Part shown: positions 18,814 to 26,895 of the stretch, piece by piece
Numbering within the stretch: the stretch's first letter is position 1
Layout: every line of letters starts with the position of its first letter
Assembly (NCBI GenBank): GCA_014695255.1
Contig: JACJNX010000075.1
Coordinates: 1-64,000, forward strand
Source: Cyanobacteria bacterium FACHB-63
Lineage (GTDB): Bacteria; Cyanobacteriota; Cyanobacteriia; Leptolyngbyales; Leptolyngbyaceae
DNA: 64,000 nucleotides
Direction of reading: 5' to 3'
Notes under the pieces: generated by a model
Databases searched by the model: none
What the model saw: only the letters and a program-made list of their open reading frames with translations
What the model was told of the DNA's origin: nothing
Program-made: the position numbers and the translations under genes

Positions 18814-20151
18814 ATGAGTAGTACAAAGCAGTTAAAACTAGGCGCTTTTATGCGTCCTGTCAGCATTCATACAGCGGCTTGGCGTTATCCTGGCGCTATC
18901 CCAGATGCAAACTTCGATTTTCCAGCTTTGAAGCAATTCATTCAGAAACTAGAACAAGGTAAGTTTGATGCCTTTTTTATGGCAGATCATTTAGCTGTTC
19001 TCAATATGCCAATTAACGCCCTGAAGCGCAGTCATACTGTTACATCATTCGAGCCATTGACGCTACTTTCTGCTCTTGCTGCTGTGACTGAACATATCGG
19101 ATTAATTGCGACTGCTTCAACCACCTATGATCAGCCGTATCACATTGCTCGTCGCTTCGCTTCTCTCGACCATATCAGTGGGGGTCGTGCGGGCTGGAAT
19201 ATTGTGACAACCTATAATCCAGATGCAGCGCTTAACTTTGGACTGGAGCAAGAGATCGAACATGATGAACGCTACAGGCGTGCCCACGAATTCTACGAGG
19301 TAGTGATTGGGCTTTGGGATTCTTTCGCGGATGATGCTTTTATTCGCGATGTAGAAGCAGGAGTGTATGTCGATCCGGCAAAAATGCACATTCTTAACCA
19401 CAAAGGAAAGTATTTCTCAGTGCGAGGTCCTTTGAACATTGCTAGACCTGTTCAGGGGTATCCGGTGATTGTTCAGGCGGGAGCCTCTGAAGCAGGACGA
19501 CAATTGGCTGCTGAAACTGCCGAGGTTGTGTTTTCAGGAGTCAATACACTAGAAGCAGGAAAGGCATTGTTTGCAGATATCAAGCGTCGATCGCAGGCGA
19601 TCGGACGCAATCCCAATAGCATTAAAATTCTGCCCGGTGCGCTAGTAATTGTTGGTGAGACTATTGAGGCAGCACAGGCGAAGCAGGCACATCTTGATAG
19701 TCTGATTCATTACGATAGCGGCATTAGCAGCCTGAATCTTGCTCTAGGCTATGATGTGTCAAGTTTTGATCCAGATAGTCCATTACCGGAGATTCCAGCA
19801 TCAAATGGTAGTCATACCGGGCGCGATCGCATTGTTGCGCTTGCTCGACGTGAAAACTTAACCATTCGCCAGTTAGCACAACGGGCGGCTAGCTATGGTG
19901 GATTAATCTTTGTGGGAACACCTCAGACGATCGCGGATGAAATGGAGCAATGGCTCTTCGAGGAAGCCGCAGATGGTTTTAATATCATGTTTCCTTTCTT
20001 ACCTGAAGGATTGAATGATTTTGTGGATCAAGTGATTCCAGAACTTCAACGGCGTGGAATTTTTCGCAGAGAATACGAAGGTAAAACGCTCCGCGAAAAT
20101 CTGGGTTTAGCGCGTCCTGAGAATCGATTTTTTCAGCCTAAATCGGTGTGA
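18814..20151 (+). CDS. LLM-class flavin-dependent monooxygenase (NtaA/SnaA/DszA type)
   Basis: This 445-residue protein is of the bacterial-luciferase-like superfamily. KLGAFMRPVSIHTAAWRYPG at the N-terminus, FMADHLAVLN, HISGGRAGWNIVTTYNPDAA and VQAGASEAGRQLAA are motifs of the nitrilotriacetate, pristinamycin and dibenzothiophene-sulfone monooxygenase branch. These use reduced FMN from a separate reductase to split C-N or C-S bonds. No flavin reductase is visible beside it. It is soluble, with GGA upstream of the ATG. The substrate is unknown. Confidence 0.9.
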   Translation: MSSTKQLKLGAFMRPVSIHTAAWRYPGAIPDANFDFPALKQFIQKLEQGKFDAFFMADHLAVLNMPINALKRSHTVTSFEPLTLLSALAAVTEHIGLIATASTTYDQPYHIARRFASLDHISGGRAGWNIVTTYNPDAALNFGLEQEIEHDERYRRAHEFYEVVIGLWDSFADDAFIRDVEAGVYVDPAKMHILNHKGKYFSVRGPLNIARPVQGYPVIVQAGASEAGRQLAAETAEVVFSGVNTLEAGKALFADIKRRSQAIGRNPNSIKILPGALVIVGETIEAAQAKQAHLDSLIHYDSGISSLNLALGYDVSSFDPDSPLPEIPASNGSHTGRDRIVALARRENLTIRQLAQRAASYGGLIFVGTPQTIADEMEQWLFEEAADGFNIMFPFLPEGLNDFVDQVIPELQRRGIFRREYEGKTLRENLGLARPENRFFQPKSV

Positions 20152-21881: not shown

Positions 21882-22313
21882 TTAAGAATTCAGGCGACGA
21901 GAGCGAAAATTACCTTTGATCTCACGATTGAAGAATCGGCCAGGGGAATCTGTGTCTTGAAGTTCGTGCCAGGTTTCGACATCAACCCCTTCGTATTGGT
22001 ACACTGCTCCATTCTTGAACTGAACTTGCAAAAGATGTTGATGTGGATCATATCCAACTGCATTTGCCATTGTGGATTGCACAGGTAACATTGGTAAGGC
22101 TGGATTCACGCCCGGAAGTTGATTGAAATCAGCAGCAGGGACTACATCTGAAGATACGATCGCATCCAGCAACCGCAATCCTTCATAAGCCGCTAACGGT
22201 GCAGGAACTTCAACAAACTCCAGATTATTCCCACGATCAATCACCAGTCCCAAGCATTCATCATCATGGCTAATCGCTACAACGCTTCTTAGATCGACTT
22301 TAGAAAGCTTCAT
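21882..22313 (-). CDS. KTSC-domain protein
   Basis: This is a 143-residue soluble protein. The C-terminal 65 residues (VQSTMANAVGYDPHQHLL, then VQFKNGAVYQYEGV, and GRFFNREIKGNF near the end) match the KTSC domain, a small fold of unknown function found in bacteria and phages. The N-terminal half (about 1-75) is unassigned. It is the last gene of a tight minus-strand operon, 11 bases after the coiled-coil gene, so it probably works with the two coiled-coil proteins. Confidence 0.85.
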   Translation of the reverse strand: MKLSKVDLRSVVAISHDDECLGLVIDRGNNLEFVEVPAPLAAYEGLRLLDAIVSSDVVPAADFNQLPGVNPALPMLPVQSTMANAVGYDPHQHLLQVQFKNGAVYQYEGVDVETWHELQDTDSPGRFFNREIKGNFRSRRLNS

Positions 22314-22324
22314 GCACTATCCCT

Positions 22325-23410
22325 TTATTTCACTTTGTTTTGATTCCTGGCTTGTTCTAGTGCGATTTCCTTAACAGCATTAAAGGAACTCACACTGGCT
22401 GAGCCTTCGATCGCTTTCACGGCTAAGTCTTGTACTTGCTTCAGCGCTCCATCTAGCTGATTTGAGAGTGTCTGAATCCGGTTTTCCTGAGCTTGGATTG
22501 TTTCCAGTAGAGATTGAATCTGCAACTCATAGGTACGTTTTTGCCCTTCAATCTCTTTTGCCATCAAATCAGCTTTGACTCTTGCTTGCTGGTTTGCAAT
22601 GCCTTTGCCTTCTTCTTTGGCACGTTTAACCGCAGCTTCAAGCTCTTTGGGGATGGCTTCGACTTTGGCTTTTAACTCCGCATACTGAGACTCACGATCG
22701 CGAACTGTTTTTTCTCGTTCTGCCCACTGTTTTTGCTGCGTCTGCTGCAACTCTTCCAATTCACGGTACAAGCGAGTTTTTTCCTGCTCATACTGATCAT
22801 TTGAGAGCTTGCGCTCTAAGTTCAGTGTGTAGGTGTACTCTTCTCCATCTCGTCGCTGAGTTTTGGTGAGAATTTCATTGCGTTCCTTGACGCTGCGACG
22901 ATGCTCCTCTTGTTCTTTTGCCCAGGCTTTTCTAGCTTGAGTGATCTCCTGGTTGAGTGTTTCTTGTCGTTGTCGCCGTTCTTCGCTGAATGTTTTGGAA
23001 CTGTCTTCGTACTGTTGGATCAGTGCTTCTACAGTGCAATCTTCTGCCTGTAGATTGTGCAATGTCTCTAGCTGTTGAGCTTCTTCTACAACTGCCTGCT
23101 GTAGCTCTTGCAGCTTCAGCACTTCCAAAGTTAGCTTCTCAGATAGATCACTGACTGCGCCGCCAAAACCAAGTTGTAGCTGATTCAGTCCGGTGATGAT
23201 GGTTTCCATCTTTTGTTGAGGCGCGATCGTGGGCGCGATCGTAGGTTCTGGGGGTGCTTTACCGTTCGTTTTACCATTCGATGCAGGTTCAACAGGTTTC
23301 GCCAGCAGTTGCTCTTCTAACGCTTTCTTCTGTTTGAGTAGTTCATCAAATGCAGACAGAATTTCAACCTTGGTGTTTTTTTCAGTGAGACGTTTAGTTA
23401 CCATTGCCAA
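22325..23410 (-). CDS. Long coiled-coil protein, paralogue B
   Basis: This is a 361-residue cytoplasmic protein. A short N-terminal helix (VEILSAFDELLKQKKALEEQ) and a Pro-rich linker (about 40-65) precede a conserved GLNQLQLGFGGAVSDL segment and then continuous Glu/Gln/Lys/Arg-rich coiled coil to about 335. It is homologous over its whole length to the gene just upstream (shared GLxxLQLxFG, ELExAVKxAxEEG, YELQIxSL). No enzyme motif, signal peptide or membrane helix is seen. Function is unknown; a filament, scaffold or oligomeric ring is possible. Confidence 0.85.
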   Translation of the reverse strand: MAMVTKRLTEKNTKVEILSAFDELLKQKKALEEQLLAKPVEPASNGKTNGKAPPEPTIAPTIAPQQKMETIITGLNQLQLGFGGAVSDLSEKLTLEVLKLQELQQAVVEEAQQLETLHNLQAEDCTVEALIQQYEDSSKTFSEERRQRQETLNQEITQARKAWAKEQEEHRRSVKERNEILTKTQRRDGEEYTYTLNLERKLSNDQYEQEKTRLYRELEELQQTQQKQWAEREKTVRDRESQYAELKAKVEAIPKELEAAVKRAKEEGKGIANQQARVKADLMAKEIEGQKRTYELQIQSLLETIQAQENRIQTLSNQLDGALKQVQDLAVKAIEGSASVSSFNAVKEIALEQARNQNKVK

Positions 23411-23447
23411 TTCTCAAGAATTACAGTAAACAGTTCAGATGGTGCAA

Positions 23448-24446
23448 CTATTCGCTTCTAGTAGCGAGACGGTTAGACGAACTATCAAAGGCTCGCATTG
23501 CAAGTTCTTGAGCTTGACGCAGCGCTGTTTGCAGTTGAGTAGAAATCTCGCTGATTTGCTCGGTCTGTTTCTGAATCTTGGTTTCTAGAGATCGGATCTG
23601 CAATTCATAGCCTTGCTGGGTGGATTCCCATTCTTTCTCCAGCAGATCTGCCTTGATTTTGGCATCCTGATGAGCATCGCGAATTCCTTCTTCCCGTGCT
23701 TTTTTGACCGCTTCTTCCAGTTCGCCTGGGAAAGCCGTGACCTTTTGCTGATACTCCTCATATAGTCTCTGATTGGCTGCCAGAACTCGTTCCCGCTCCG
23801 TCCAGTCTTTTTCCTTGGCTTCGATCGTTTCCCTAATTTCCCACTCGATTTGCCGTTTCGTTTCTTCATACTCATCGGTTGCAATGCGGCGCGATCGCGC
23901 ACTGTCGTACTGGTAATCTTCTTCTTGACGCTGCCGTTGCTGATTGAGAAGTTCGCTGCTTTCGTTGGTCTGAGCGTCAAACTCTTCTTGCTCTTGCTGC
24001 CAGGTTTTGCGAGTTTCGGTGATGTCGCGATCGAGGGTTTCACGATCGCGCGTGGCTTGTTGTTCAAGTTGGCGCAGGGTTTCTTGATGCTCTTGGGTGA
24101 TCAAGTAGAGGGCATCAGCAACGATGCGGGTCTGCTGAAGGTCTTTGAGGTGCTTACTTTCAACCGCAAGCGATCGCTTAAGGTCATCGAGCTTCTTGGT
24201 TTCAGTCGTTAGGCGATTGGCAAGAGCGGCGATCGTCGTACCAAAGTCCAATTGCAAATCAGCCAGTCCGCGCACAATTCCATCTGCTGTGTATTGCGAC
24301 ACTGCTTCCAGCACTGTTCGGTCTTGCTCTTTGGCGGCTTCTTCGCTGCGGGTGGCAACTCTCGAAGACAGCGATCGCTGCTCGGTAAGGATGGTTTGAA
24401 AGGCATCGAGAATTCTGGTTTTGCTATCGTTTGCAACTTGTGTCAT
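23448..24446 (-). CDS. Long coiled-coil protein, paralogue A
   Basis: This 332-residue coiled-coil protein is the first gene of the minus-strand operon. The frame is open back to 24539, but ATG 24446 (MTQVANDSKTRILDAF) aligns with the paralogue's N-terminus, so I start there. Conserved segments are GLADLQLDFGTTIAAL, GELEEAVKKAREEG and YELQIRSLETKIQKQ. The N-terminal Pro-rich linker of paralogue B is missing. It is divergent from the XRE regulator across about 190 bases. Function is unknown. Confidence 0.83.
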   Translation of the reverse strand: MTQVANDSKTRILDAFQTILTEQRSLSSRVATRSEEAAKEQDRTVLEAVSQYTADGIVRGLADLQLDFGTTIAALANRLTTETKKLDDLKRSLAVESKHLKDLQQTRIVADALYLITQEHQETLRQLEQQATRDRETLDRDITETRKTWQQEQEEFDAQTNESSELLNQQRQRQEEDYQYDSARSRRIATDEYEETKRQIEWEIRETIEAKEKDWTERERVLAANQRLYEEYQQKVTAFPGELEEAVKKAREEGIRDAHQDAKIKADLLEKEWESTQQGYELQIRSLETKIQKQTEQISEISTQLQTALRQAQELAMRAFDSSSNRLATRSE

Positions 24447-24603
24447 GACGGAAGTGGGAAAAGAGTGAACTGCTGCTGCTCGGAAGCAGGACTGCTGCAC
24501 GATCGAGGGCAGTGCTGCTATAGTAGGAGTAGAATGCAAACTGTGGTTTGCAATTCATGTGTACTACTTTATCACTTTTCTTCCGCTTATGCAATACTCA
24601 GCG

Positions 24604-24614
24604 ACAAAATTTGT
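24604..24614. promoter_or_regulatory. Palindrome before the XRE gene, candidate operator
   Basis: ACAAA-A-TTTGT is a perfect 11-base palindrome 23 bases before the XRE start, inside the divergent promoter region. GACAA at 24603 and TTGTC at 24624-24628 form a wider inverted pair. It is a plausible binding site for the adjacent HTH protein. Confidence 0.35.
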
Positions 24615-24637
24615 AAACTGTAGTTGTCAAAACGAGA

Positions 24638-25009
24638 ATGGATGAATTTGCAAAACGAGTCCGCGATCGACGGATTCAAGAAGGGTTAAGCCAGCAGGAA
24701 TTAGCTGATCAGATTGGAATTTCCCGCAATTACCTGTCTCAAATTGAGCGAGGGCAGGCAACGAATCTCTCTTGGCAGGTGCGGGAGCGCTTGTCTGCGG
24801 TGTTAGGGCTAAAGGCGGAACCTGCACCCAGTTCTGCATTAGAGACAGTCGATCTGCCTCCGAGTTTGGTAGAGTTCGCTCAAAACGCCAATCTGCCGCC
24901 CGATGATGTGTTGATGCTGTCGCGATTAAAGTATCGAGGACAGCAGCCGACCTCGCCGGAGAAATGGGAGCTACTGTATAACGTCATTAAGATGACCGTG
25001 GGAAAATAG
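24638..25009 (+). CDS. XRE-family HTH regulator
   Basis: This is a 123-residue protein. An N-terminal Cro/CI-type helix-turn-helix (LSQQELADQIGISRNYLSQI, about 18-37) is followed by a linker and a C-terminal helical part (about 75-123, PPDDVLMLSRLKYRGQQP). It is followed 51 bases later by an IrrE-like gene, the common regulator/peptidase pair in which the peptidase cleaves or controls the repressor. It probably regulates its own and the divergent coiled-coil operon (inference). Confidence 0.9.
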   Translation: MDEFAKRVRDRRIQEGLSQQELADQIGISRNYLSQIERGQATNLSWQVRERLSAVLGLKAEPAPSSALETVDLPPSLVEFAQNANLPPDDVLMLSRLKYRGQQPTSPEKWELLYNVIKMTVGK

Positions 25010-25060
25010 AAAGCCCACCGTTCATTGAATGAATTGCTAATCGATTAACCCATCTTCGGG

Positions 25061-25954
25061 ATGGGGCACTCTAGCGCGAAAAATGCGAGGAATCCTGTGA
25101 GTTTGCCACAGACTTATCGACACCCCGGACGAGCCTTCCTGTCTCAATATGGAAGGCTGCAATCTGAAGAGGATATCTTTCGCTATGTCAACTTCTTGCG
25201 CCACGAATCCGGGCTGGGTGACGAACCTCCGATCGCGCTTACTCACATTTATCAGCACTTTGGAATGCCTGAACCGCTACGCGCTCCACTCGATGAGCAA
25301 CAAGGCATTTTAGTAGACAGCAACACTGGGATTATTTTGATCAAGGAAGATGACCCGATCGTGCGGCAGCGTTTCACCGAGGGACACGAACTGATGGAAT
25401 TGCTGTTTGATGCTCAACAAGAAGCCAGAATGGAGAGTCCTTTGCCAAGTTGGAGTGAGCAGCGTAAAGAGCGACTCTGTGATCAAGGAGCCGCCGATTT
25501 GTTGATGCCACAATCTTCATTTGTGCCAAAGCTGCATCAATTAGGCATTTCCTTGAAAACGGGACGATCGCTTGCAACGGTCTATCAAACTTCACTGCTG
25601 GCGACGCTTGTGCGAATGTTGCAATACGGAGTCGGGGATCACGCGCTAGTCCTGTGGCATTGTGTACTTAAACCTTCTGAGATGAAACAAAGTCCCCCAA
25701 TCAAAGCTCAGAGAAAACTTCGAGTCTGCTGGAAAATTCAGACACAGGACTGGACAGGCGGTTTTATTCCCAAAGATAAATCGATTCCTCACGATTCATT
25801 AATCTCGCAAGCTTATGTCAGCGGTCAATCTTACTCTGGAGCAGAAACGATTAATTTGGGTTGGACATCAATCCGATGCAACATAGAAGCTATGCCAATT
25901 CGGTTGGGTGATCGTATTAGTGTTCTGTCTCTCTTGCACCCTACAGATGGATGA
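25061..25954 (+). CDS. ImmA/IrrE-like protein with altered zinc motif
   Basis: This is a 297-residue soluble protein. FTEGHELMELLF is at the position of the HExxH helix, but the second His is replaced by Glu (HELME). ERLCDQGAADLLMP corresponds to the IrrE motif ETLCNxGAAxLLMP that gives the third metal ligand. The C-terminal 100 residues are a beta-rich domain of unknown role. IrrE-type peptidases cleave partner repressors; this variant may bind metal differently or be inactive. It follows the XRE gene and overlaps the ribokinase start by 4 bases (ATGA). Confidence 0.82.
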   Translation: MGHSSAKNARNPVSLPQTYRHPGRAFLSQYGRLQSEEDIFRYVNFLRHESGLGDEPPIALTHIYQHFGMPEPLRAPLDEQQGILVDSNTGIILIKEDDPIVRQRFTEGHELMELLFDAQQEARMESPLPSWSEQRKERLCDQGAADLLMPQSSFVPKLHQLGISLKTGRSLATVYQTSLLATLVRMLQYGVGDHALVLWHCVLKPSEMKQSPPIKAQRKLRVCWKIQTQDWTGGFIPKDKSIPHDSLISQAYVSGQSYSGAETINLGWTSIRCNIEAMPIRLGDRISVLSLLHPTDG

Positions 25955-26895
25955 ATCACGCCATGACACGATCGATTATCACGCTCGGTAGTATCAATAT
26001 GGATCTTGTGGCGCAAGTTCCACGACTGCCTCAACCTGGGGAAACGCTATTAGGCTACACTTTTTCGACGGTTCCAGGGGGAAAGGGAGCAAATCAAGCG
26101 GTCGGCGTTGCTAAATTGGGGGGATCAAGCCGCATGATTGGGCGAGTTGGAGGAGATGCGTTTGGTGCAGAATTGCTAGAAAGCTTGCAAACTGCGGGAG
26201 TGCAAACCGATTTAATTAGCGTCGATCGCACAATCTCGTCAGGTGTTGCGATGATCGCAGTGGATGATCGAGCTGAGAATCATATTATTGTCGTTCCAGG
26301 CGCTAACGGCAATGTGAGTGATTTCGATGTTGATCGTCTCAAACTTGCGTTAACTGACTCATCGATCTTGTTATTGCAGCTTGAGATTCCTTTATCGATC
26401 GTTCAATCTGCTGCAACGATTGCACAACAGATTGGCGCAACGGTCATTCTTGATCCTGCTCCCGCGCCTGAAACCTTCCCAGAAAAGCTTTATTCACAGA
26501 TTGATATTCTGACTCCCAATGCAACTGAGACAGCACAACTTGTCGGATTTCCAATTCGGGATCAAGCAGATGCCGATCGAGCGGCGGCAATTCTGCAAGA
26601 AAAGGGAACCAGAACGATCGTGATCAAGCTAGGCGCTCAAGGCGCATTTTGCGCGACCCAAGATGATCGCTTTTTTGTCCCAGCTTTTTCAGTCAATGCG
26701 ATCGATACGGTTGCTGCCGGGGATGCGTTTAATGCAGGATTAGCTGTGGCGCTATCTGAAGGGTTATCGATGCGCGAGGCGATTACTTGGGGTGCCGCAT
26801 CAGGAGCGCTCTCTACGACAAAATCCGGGGCGCAAGCTTCACTAGCAGAGCGATCGGCGTTTAATACTTTTTTGAGCCACATGCAAAAGCCCTGA
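25951..26895 (+). CDS. rbsK: Ribokinase (PfkB family)
   Basis: This 314-residue enzyme phosphorylates ribose to ribose 5-phosphate using ATP. The N-terminal GSINMDLVAQVPRLPQPGET and GGKGANQAVGVAKLGG are the ribokinase signature 1 region; DTVAAGDAFNAGLAVAL contains the catalytic Asp of PfkB signature 2. The start ATG overlaps the stop of the IrrE-like gene (ATGA); ATG at 25963 is an alternative. No ribose transporter is nearby. Coupling to a regulator pair rather than a sugar operon is unusual. Confidence 0.92.
   Translation: MNHAMTRSIITLGSINMDLVAQVPRLPQPGETLLGYTFSTVPGGKGANQAVGVAKLGGSSRMIGRVGGDAFGAELLESLQTAGVQTDLISVDRTISSGVAMIAVDDRAENHIIVVPGANGNVSDFDVDRLKLALTDSSILLLQLEIPLSIVQSAATIAQQIGATVILDPAPAPETFPEKLYSQIDILTPNATETAQLVGFPIRDQADADRAAAILQEKGTRTIVIKLGAQGAFCATQDDRFFVPAFSVNAIDTVAAGDAFNAGLAVALSEGLSMREAITWGAASGALSTTKSGAQASLAERSAFNTFLSHMQKP

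Follow-up and report, generated by a model that had tools for sequence, protein, structure and literature searches.

We analyzed 64,000 nucleotides from Cyanobacteria bacterium FACHB-63 (contig JACJNX010000075.1, assembly GCA_014695255.1; hereafter, the window) and considered in it the locus at positions 21,882–26,895, where six genes lie in two divergent runs. On the minus strand the genes of two long coiled-coil proteins, A and B, are followed by the gene of a protein with a KTSC domain; on the plus strand, across a promoter region of 191 bp, lie the genes of an XRE-family regulator, an IrrE-like protein and a ribokinase. This layout, with its tight order of coiled-coil and KTSC genes, had been proposed in a first-pass annotation made from the sequence alone, and it was confirmed: all six open reading frames (ORFs) were verified, as were the 191-bp region and the gaps (37 bp between A and B, 11 bp between B and the KTSC gene, 51 bp between the XRE and IrrE-like genes; the ribokinase gene overlaps the IrrE-like gene by 4 bp). 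A and B are relatives of ZicK and ZacK of Anabaena, and their genes are called below zicK and zacK, respectively.

A recurring divergent cassette

The order zicK, zacK, KTSC in one direction and XRE, IrrE-like gene in the other was also found on plasmid pA of Kovacikia minuta and in genome G197. The KTSC, XRE and IrrE-like proteins encoded there are 57–75% identical to those of the window. The flanks of the three cassettes differ, except for a match to the window's flavin-monooxygenase-like gene (18814–20151), situated downstream in Kovacikia in the opposite orientation. The first-pass annotation had included the ribokinase; since no ribokinase gene adjoins the module in either Kovacikia or G197, we judged that it is not part of the module. 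As for the remaining genes, their arrangement is more than chance, as it recurs in the two other genomes with conserved operators.

The candidate operators, O1 and O2, lie in the intergenic region (Table 1). The half-sites of O1 are identical in all three loci; the exact O1 pattern occurs once in the 7.2-Mb genome to which the window belongs, once in the 1.2-Mb Kovacikia plasmid and twice in G197, with no occurrence of a reversed control. The second O1-type site of G197 (L166) was taken as a chance one because it is inside a long ORF. O2 has three, three and four mismatches to O1 in the three loci, at O2–O1 spacings of 77, 77 and 76 bp. Inspection by eye also showed hexamers comparable to the predicted −10 element of zicK in the intergenic regions of Kovacikia and G197. 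O1 is placed just downstream of a plausible promoter (TTGCAT-17-TAAAGT) and O2 precedes the XRE start; the predicted arrangement is the layout of a local repressor controlling both directions.

Table 1. Genes and predicted sites of the locus, in coordinates of the window
Feature	Position	Strand	Remarks
KTSC protein	21882..22313	-	143 aa; conserved N-terminal region unmatched in Pfam, C-terminal KTSC domain (79-136)
ZacK-like coiled-coil protein B (Alr4505 type)	22325..23404	-	359 aa from conserved ATG at 23404
ZicK-like coiled-coil protein A (Alr4504 type)	23448..24446	-	332 aa
O1, candidate operator	24535..24552		palindrome TGCAAAC-N4-GTTTGCA; just downstream of predicted zicK transcription start
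Predicted -10 element of zicK promoter	24566..24571	-	TAAAGT; by eye; 17 bases from -35
Predicted -35 element of zicK promoter	24589..24594	-	TTGCAT; by eye
O2, operator-like site	24612..24629		3 mismatches to O1; ends 9 bp before XRE start
XRE-family repressor (predicted)	24638..25009	+	123 aa; HTH_31/HTH_3
IrrE/CapP-like M78 protein	25061..25954	+	297 aa; PF06114; HELME replaces HEXXH
Ribokinase (PfkB)	25951..26895	+	314 aa; PfkB E 5e-70; judged outside the module

Read from a TTG codon, the frame of B spans 22325–23410 (minus strand) and has 361 codons for amino acids; a longer TTG-started frame of A begins at 24539, inside O1. The open frames of 84–123 aa antisense to zicK, at 23850–24623 of the plus strand, are mechanical ORFs with no evidence for genes.

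The coiled-coil pair and its KTSC partner

As paralogues, A and B align along almost the full length (33% identity, E 2e-55), as the first-pass annotation had claimed. Its statement that the proteins have no known domain stood for Pfam and NCBIfam, where neither has a match; it did not stand beyond them, since PHROG 29668 is matched by both A and B (E 1e-25 and 5e-17, the only strong library match) and the family has been described in Anabaena. Thus the coiled-coil proteins, as relatives of ZicK/ZacK, were not undescribed. In the window's own genome, of which the window is contig C153, a search with B brought up no family member besides A and B.

The relation to the Anabaena proteins was traced through Nostocaceae. 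Identity to the A and B proteins of loci L004–L013 is 51–54% for A and 51–56% for B. In 21 of 23 Nostocaceae loci the genes of PhoU, a histidine kinase and a response regulator come first, in this order, and A and B follow on the opposite strand (Pfam check of L005); in a strict recount PhoU and the regulator were directly upstream in 20 of 23 loci, with one small ORF in between in the 21st (L071). In Anabaena/Nostoc PCC 7120 the genes phoU, sphS and sphR are all4501, all4502 and all4503 (PMC7564538); as the gene order is the same, A should correspond to Alr4504 and B to Alr4505. By sequence the coiled-coil pair belongs to the Alr4504/Alr4505 family, with homology given by the 51–56% identity to Nostocaceae-type proteins, mostly from the all4501–all4503 context, and with the PCC 7120 tags assigned by gene order. 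We take Alr4504 to be ZicK and Alr4505 to be ZacK. With its tandem of paralogous A-type and B-type coiled-coils the window pair is of the ZicK/ZacK kind. Strictly interdependent heteropolymers of ZicK and ZacK have been reported, as well as a role in trichome shape, and an interaction with SepJ is cited (PMC8262864). The AlphaFold2 single-chain model of window ZacK (mean pLDDT 79, pTM 0.27) has a helix at residues 9–34, a low-confidence linker and a helix of ∼295 residues (62–356); this adds only a predicted rod shape.

A family profile built from 11 sequences was searched against 386 cyanobacterial genomes. The family was present in 56 of them, in 52 as an intact tandem pair; the decayed or fragmentary pairs of the other four (G087, G151, G231, G385) were excluded from the intact count. 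The three other genomes listed in the window's family had no match to the profile. Decayed or fragmentary zicK/zacK genes, seen in L102 (G385), G723:C301, G087, G151, G231 and G721, suggest loss in some lineages. In a tree of 118 sequences rooted on phage G (left out were L017, which nearly duplicates L016, and fragments of ≤230 residues) the A proteins made one clade (56/56, support 1.0) and the cyanobacterial B proteins another (57/57, support 0.53), with four Bacteroidota-side sequences outside both. As all A and all B proteins form two clades, the A/B duplication looks older than the sampled cyanobacteria, with both copies retained together.

Among 296 genomes from the phylum to which the Proteiniphilum genome belongs, 6 had one match each to the coiled-coil family, two of them partial. 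In L016 (10007–11017) and L017, from Proteiniphilum and Paludibacter, a single-copy homologue is flanked on one side by an AbiEii gene and the upstream partner of that gene, on the other by cas4, cas1 and cas2; a Csa2/DevR-type gene and a repeat array belong to the same CRISPR-Cas locus. Another single-copy relative is gp268 of the giant Bacillus phage G (L019 7692–8720), which matches PHROG 29668 along the entire length. A phage or viral origin of the pair was considered and rejected: no relative appeared in two viral-contig scans, and phage records gave only gp268 (two records, one phage).

The window KTSC protein matches PF13619 at model positions 1–58 of 58 (E 6e-23; 80.7 bits versus a cut-off of 25). 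Relatives of its C-terminal domain in PDB are 7x8c, 4rgi and the HerA C-terminus 8wiv (E 7e-17 to 2e-14). The idea that the N-terminal region is a second, degenerate KTSC domain was not supported (hhalign E 0.33), and the structure predicted from the single sequence was unusable (pLDDT 48.5). The domain had been called phage-associated in the first-pass annotation. A phage origin was not borne out: none of the matches in 25 phage records covers 80% of the protein, the 20 listed start at residue 57 or later, and the full-length relatives found were cyanobacterial.

We counted a KTSC protein as full-length if it had at least 120 of the 143 residues. Out of 58 genomes with a match, 30 had partial ones (mostly other KTSC-domain proteins; a split gene in G354, a fragment in G024) and were not counted. 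The full-length protein was present in 28 of the 386 genomes, and 26 of these 28 were among the 52 genomes with an intact pair (Fisher p 9e-24; here and in the next comparisons the species tree is not modeled). Outside Nostocaceae all 10 genomes with full-length KTSC have the pair (29 genomes being pair-positive). In a separate draw of 75 Nostocaceae, KTSC was present in 34 of 40 genomes with an intact pair versus 5 of 35 others (p 4e-10) and, with one genome taken per genus, in 26 of 31 versus 1 of 25 (p 6e-10); 5 of the 45 pair-positive genomes in this draw (G385, G087, G231, G721, G723) were counted as not intact. KTSC is missing in four of five Nostocaceae with decayed pairs. Besides the window, Kovacikia and G197, the flanks of the 27 other KTSC loci fetched contain no zicK/zacK; conserved neighbors of the unlinked KTSC genes did not emerge either, the commonest neighbor cluster being present in just 7 of 27 loci. 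The KTSC protein is a third partner of the pair, usually unlinked.

Probable exchange of switches, and operators shared in trans

The window XRE (HTH_31, E 5e-13; 71–75% identity to two relatives) has capH as its best PADLOC model (E 4e-11), with other generic XRE models close behind. The window IrrE-like protein has an M78 domain (PF06114, E 8e-8) and matches PADLOC capP at E 5e-22; in plasmid records its matches were the Kovacikia protein and eight weak ones. The first-pass annotation had made its module idea depend on co-occurrence of the coiled-coil, KTSC and XRE/IrrE genes in other genomes. In one part this was seen, as the window-type IrrE-like protein occurs only with the pair (relatives at E ≤1e-15 in 2 of 386 genomes, adjoining the pair in both, and on the Kovacikia plasmid); in another part it was not, since the pair often comes with another switch and with KTSC unlinked or missing.

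With capH and capP as the best PADLOC matches of the XRE and M78 proteins, one could think of an anti-phage effector module under CapH/CapP-like control, whose filaments upon infection would block phage development or host growth. Indeed, CapH + CapP and similar regulators are reported to adjoin immune operons (PMC13373217), the KTSC domain is found on a HerA protein in PDB and has been called DNA-binding in conflict systems (PMC9503650), the single-copy Bacteroidota homologue is inside a CRISPR-Cas locus, and the Adonisia copy adjoins genes that read, by eye, as restriction-modification. Still, no toxic or enzymatic domain was found in the three structural genes with Pfam and NCBIfam; in PADLOC these genes match nothing beyond coiled-coil models, and those weakly (ZorA E 8e-4, others >0.05); the Nostocaceae pair usually occupies a constant position on the chromosome (21 of 23 loci), not islands; and ZicK/ZacK are reported to act in trichome shape. 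We consider the anti-phage explanation unlikely.

Another XRE, of cluster c5, is divergent from zicK or from a short gene run leading to zicK in 20 further loci; in 13 of them the c5 XRE gene is followed by the gene of a different ImmA protein (c10), with HEXXH intact in all 13. Thus, the same filament genes are accompanied by two distinct XRE/metallopeptidase pairs. The c10 ImmA protein is not specific for them: it is present in 33 of the 386 genomes and adjoins the pair in 13. One such c10-type protein is also encoded in the window's own genome, on a contig other than that of zicK/zacK (G000:C90:17000-17626). In one lineage (L074, L075, L078, L080–L084) up to three further genes (c17, c12, c13) lie between XRE and zicK and may be extra operon components; Pfam gave no family for c17 and c12 and none above cut-off for c13.

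The 20 XRE-side intergenic regions of this second type contain 49 TTGA-N8-TCAA sites (0.16 expected from mononucleotide shuffles), with at least one site in 19 of 20 loci and with no LexA box in any of the 20. The associated operator is GTTGA-N8-TCAAC, found at the zicK side in 19 of 20 loci and clearly at KTSC in 6 of 9. For the latter count a weight matrix was built from zicK-side sites only and scanned on nine unlinked KTSC promoters (G354 was put back to make nine); six of them (L147, L150, L153, L154, L155, L162) had a site scoring above every background window of their own locus.

In Nostocaceae we observed another operator. AGTAC-N4-GTACT with at most one mismatch is present within 400 bp upstream of zicK in 19 of 23 loci (4 perfect), in comparison with 0.7% of 3787 random windows from the same loci, and within 250 bp upstream of KTSC in 16 of 18 (1 perfect), in comparison with 0 of 3799. 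For cyanobacteria the LexA box has been published as AGTACWNWTGTACT, and the lexA gene of PCC 7120 has AGTACTAATGTTCT (PMC3091678); by this measure the Nostocaceae homologues have predicted LexA boxes and the window cassette has none. Genome G338 (7.0 Mb) has only four perfect TAGTAC-N4-GTACTA sites, situated before zicK, KTSC, a VWA-domain gene and a small ORF. If one mismatch is allowed there are 25 sites versus 11 for the reversed control, and one of them, 33 bp before lexA (LexA by Pfam), is identical in its letters to AGTACTAATGTTCT. Other genes near LexA-like sites of G338 (L167, L170, L177, L179) were that of the VWA-domain protein, whose Pfam match is at the cut-off; the small ORF, which Pfam assigns to no family; a TerB-like ORF, whose match is below the cut-off and whose site has no ORF start within range; and a gene reading as ribokinase, with a one-mismatch site 48 bp upstream of it. 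The main text of the published LexA regulon prediction, supplementary tables aside, does not contain alr4504/alr4505 (PMC3091678).

For the most part, then, unlinked KTSC genes have an operator of the type present at zicK. As zicK and KTSC share either LexA-like or second-type operators, two unrelated regulators each seem to tie KTSC to zicK/zacK. One could argue instead for a constitutive cell-shape cytoskeleton, with the regulators and KTSC being incidental neighbors; this would agree with the reported role of ZicK/ZacK in trichome shape and with the Nostocaceae pair loci, which have neither XRE/IrrE nor linked KTSC. Operators conserved in three lineages, the co-occurrence of KTSC combined with operators shared in trans, and the strong induction of the Alr4504/Alr4505 proteins reported in PMC8147232 make such an explanation very improbable.

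A probable stress-inducible filament module

We think it probable that the locus is a stress-inducible, self-contained filament cassette made of an XRE/IrrE-like switch, a ZicK–ZacK heteropolymer and KTSC as third component, and that the switch has been exchanged between lineages. The XRE protein would bind O1 and O2 and in this way repress its own gene and the divergent zicK–zacK–KTSC operon. Repression would be lifted, via the IrrE/CapP-like protein, by a stress signal for which DNA damage or single-stranded DNA (ssDNA) is the likeliest candidate; ZicK and ZacK would then co-assemble into an intermediate-filament-like heteropolymer, and KTSC would serve as third component, perhaps as adaptor between filament and nucleic acid. 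The adaptor role is a guess made because one paper terms the KTSC domain DNA-binding (PMC9503650). In other cyanobacteria one switch would control the three genes in trans: LexA in Nostocaceae, a different XRE + ImmA pair elsewhere. The proposal of the first-pass annotation, a regulated structural assembly under XRE/IrrE control and possibly in stress response, is well supported by the recurring cassette, the shared operators and the heteropolymer family; what fell away from it were the undescribed coiled-coils, the ribokinase and the phage link of KTSC.

The inducing stress is probably DNA damage. The LexA-type sites suggest such a signal in Nostocaceae. Upon treatment with β-N-methylamino-L-alanine (BMAA), Alr4505 was reported to go up 20-fold and Alr4504 4.35-fold at protein level (PMC8147232); for two other BMAA experiments 6.67- and 3.57-fold increases of Alr4505 are given, and RecA is listed at 3.03 and 3.7 (PMC7354497), the RecA values being those of a table in flattened form. 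In related systems ssDNA activates PprI/IrrE and CapP to cleave DdrO and CapH (PMC10904395, PMC13373217).

Several observations weigh against this explanation. The co-occurrence statistics ignore kinship, and 26 of the 52 genomes with an intact pair have no full-length KTSC. Among the second-type KTSC promoters, L151 (G129) has no site, the site of L149 is weak (6.9% of windows are as good) and for L152 the figure is 1.4%. Given 11 sites in the reversed control, a fair share of the 25 one-mismatch sites in G338 should be due to chance. The LexA-like sites are at varying distance from zicK (63–360 bp from ATG), just 4 of the 23 loci have a perfect site, and 4 have no site; most of the sites fall in the region that zicK shares with the divergent response-regulator gene (in G338 about equally near both) and could serve the latter gene instead. 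BMAA is not a clean DNA-damage treatment, and the authors of the BMAA studies call the Alr4504/Alr4505 genes NtcA-controlled, another possible cause of the induction (PMC8147232, PMC7354497). As the intergenic regions of the window and G197 contain no LexA box (that of Kovacikia has a single one-mismatch match), it is the IrrE/CapP relationship, together with analogy, that connects the cassette of the window organism with damage.

A further point against is the metallopeptidase motif. In all three members (window, Kovacikia, G197) the IrrE-like protein has HELME, not HEXXH. HELME of the window protein aligns to HEISH of the IrrE structure 3dte; the second histidine of HEXXH, a canonical metal ligand, is replaced by Glu, and a downstream Glu before LLMP/LLLP is kept. 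Due to this replacement classical proteolysis by the window protein is doubtful, and cleavage of XRE may not occur; the protein may be a weak protease, a protease with altered metal or a non-cleaving sensor. A variant overlaps the explanation given above: the module would be induced by a stress other than DNA damage (redox, desiccation or osmotic stress), and the IrrE-like protein would act as a co-regulator without proteolysis, with cyanobacterial LexA possibly answering other cues. It agrees with HELME in three of three members and with the description of Synechocystis LexA as a regulator of non-SOS genes; it agrees less well with intact HEXXH in all 13 ImmA proteins of the other switch type and with the reported binding of Nostoc PCC 7120 LexA to the lexA and recA promoters (both on LexA, PMC3091678). 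We regard this variant as possible, if somewhat unlikely.

In its most specific form the stress-inducible cassette would be a three-component, DNA-damage-inducible, intermediate-filament-like system with a DNA-tying KTSC adaptor, whose switch is swapped among LexA, XRE + ImmA protease and XRE + catalytically altered IrrE-like sensor; this form we put forward tentatively, as one that may well prove wrong. ZicK/ZacK have been described as novel bacterial coiled-coils that polymerize only as a pair, and discussed as shape proteins. That the pair comes with a third gene and with stress switches, the logic being kept and the regulator swapped, suggests a filament made on demand after damage; in addition, KTSC is named as a missing partner of ZicK/ZacK. 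In mainly open literature, with no search pairing KTSC with ZicK, we found no description of zicK/zacK stress switches, of the KTSC partner or of trans operators.

In comparison with known systems, the coiled-coil pair is of an already known kind; its ties to stress switches, to KTSC and to operators shared in trans are seemingly new. The window KTSC protein has a C-terminal KTSC domain like 7x8c, 4rgi and 8wiv, but carries an extra conserved N-terminal region, the PDB matches starting at profile position 74 or 77. With ZicK/ZacK of Anabaena sp. PCC 7120 the window pair shares tandem paralogous long coiled-coils and family membership by sequence, and the Nostocaceae relatives share the gene order next to phoU-sphS-sphR; it differs in being in an operon with KTSC and facing divergent XRE/IrrE genes, whereas the sources, as far as available, mention no regulator or KTSC partner for the PCC 7120 pair. 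The likeness to the cyanobacterial LexA (SOS) regulon is that zicK and KTSC promoters of Nostocaceae have AGTAC-N4-GTACT-like sites like that of lexA; the window cassette differs by having no LexA box. With CapH + CapP and DdrO + PprI/IrrE the window locus has in common an XRE-type repressor gene next to an M78 gene, beside the operon thought to be controlled; in the window, however, this operon encodes a filament module and HELME stands in place of HEXXH.

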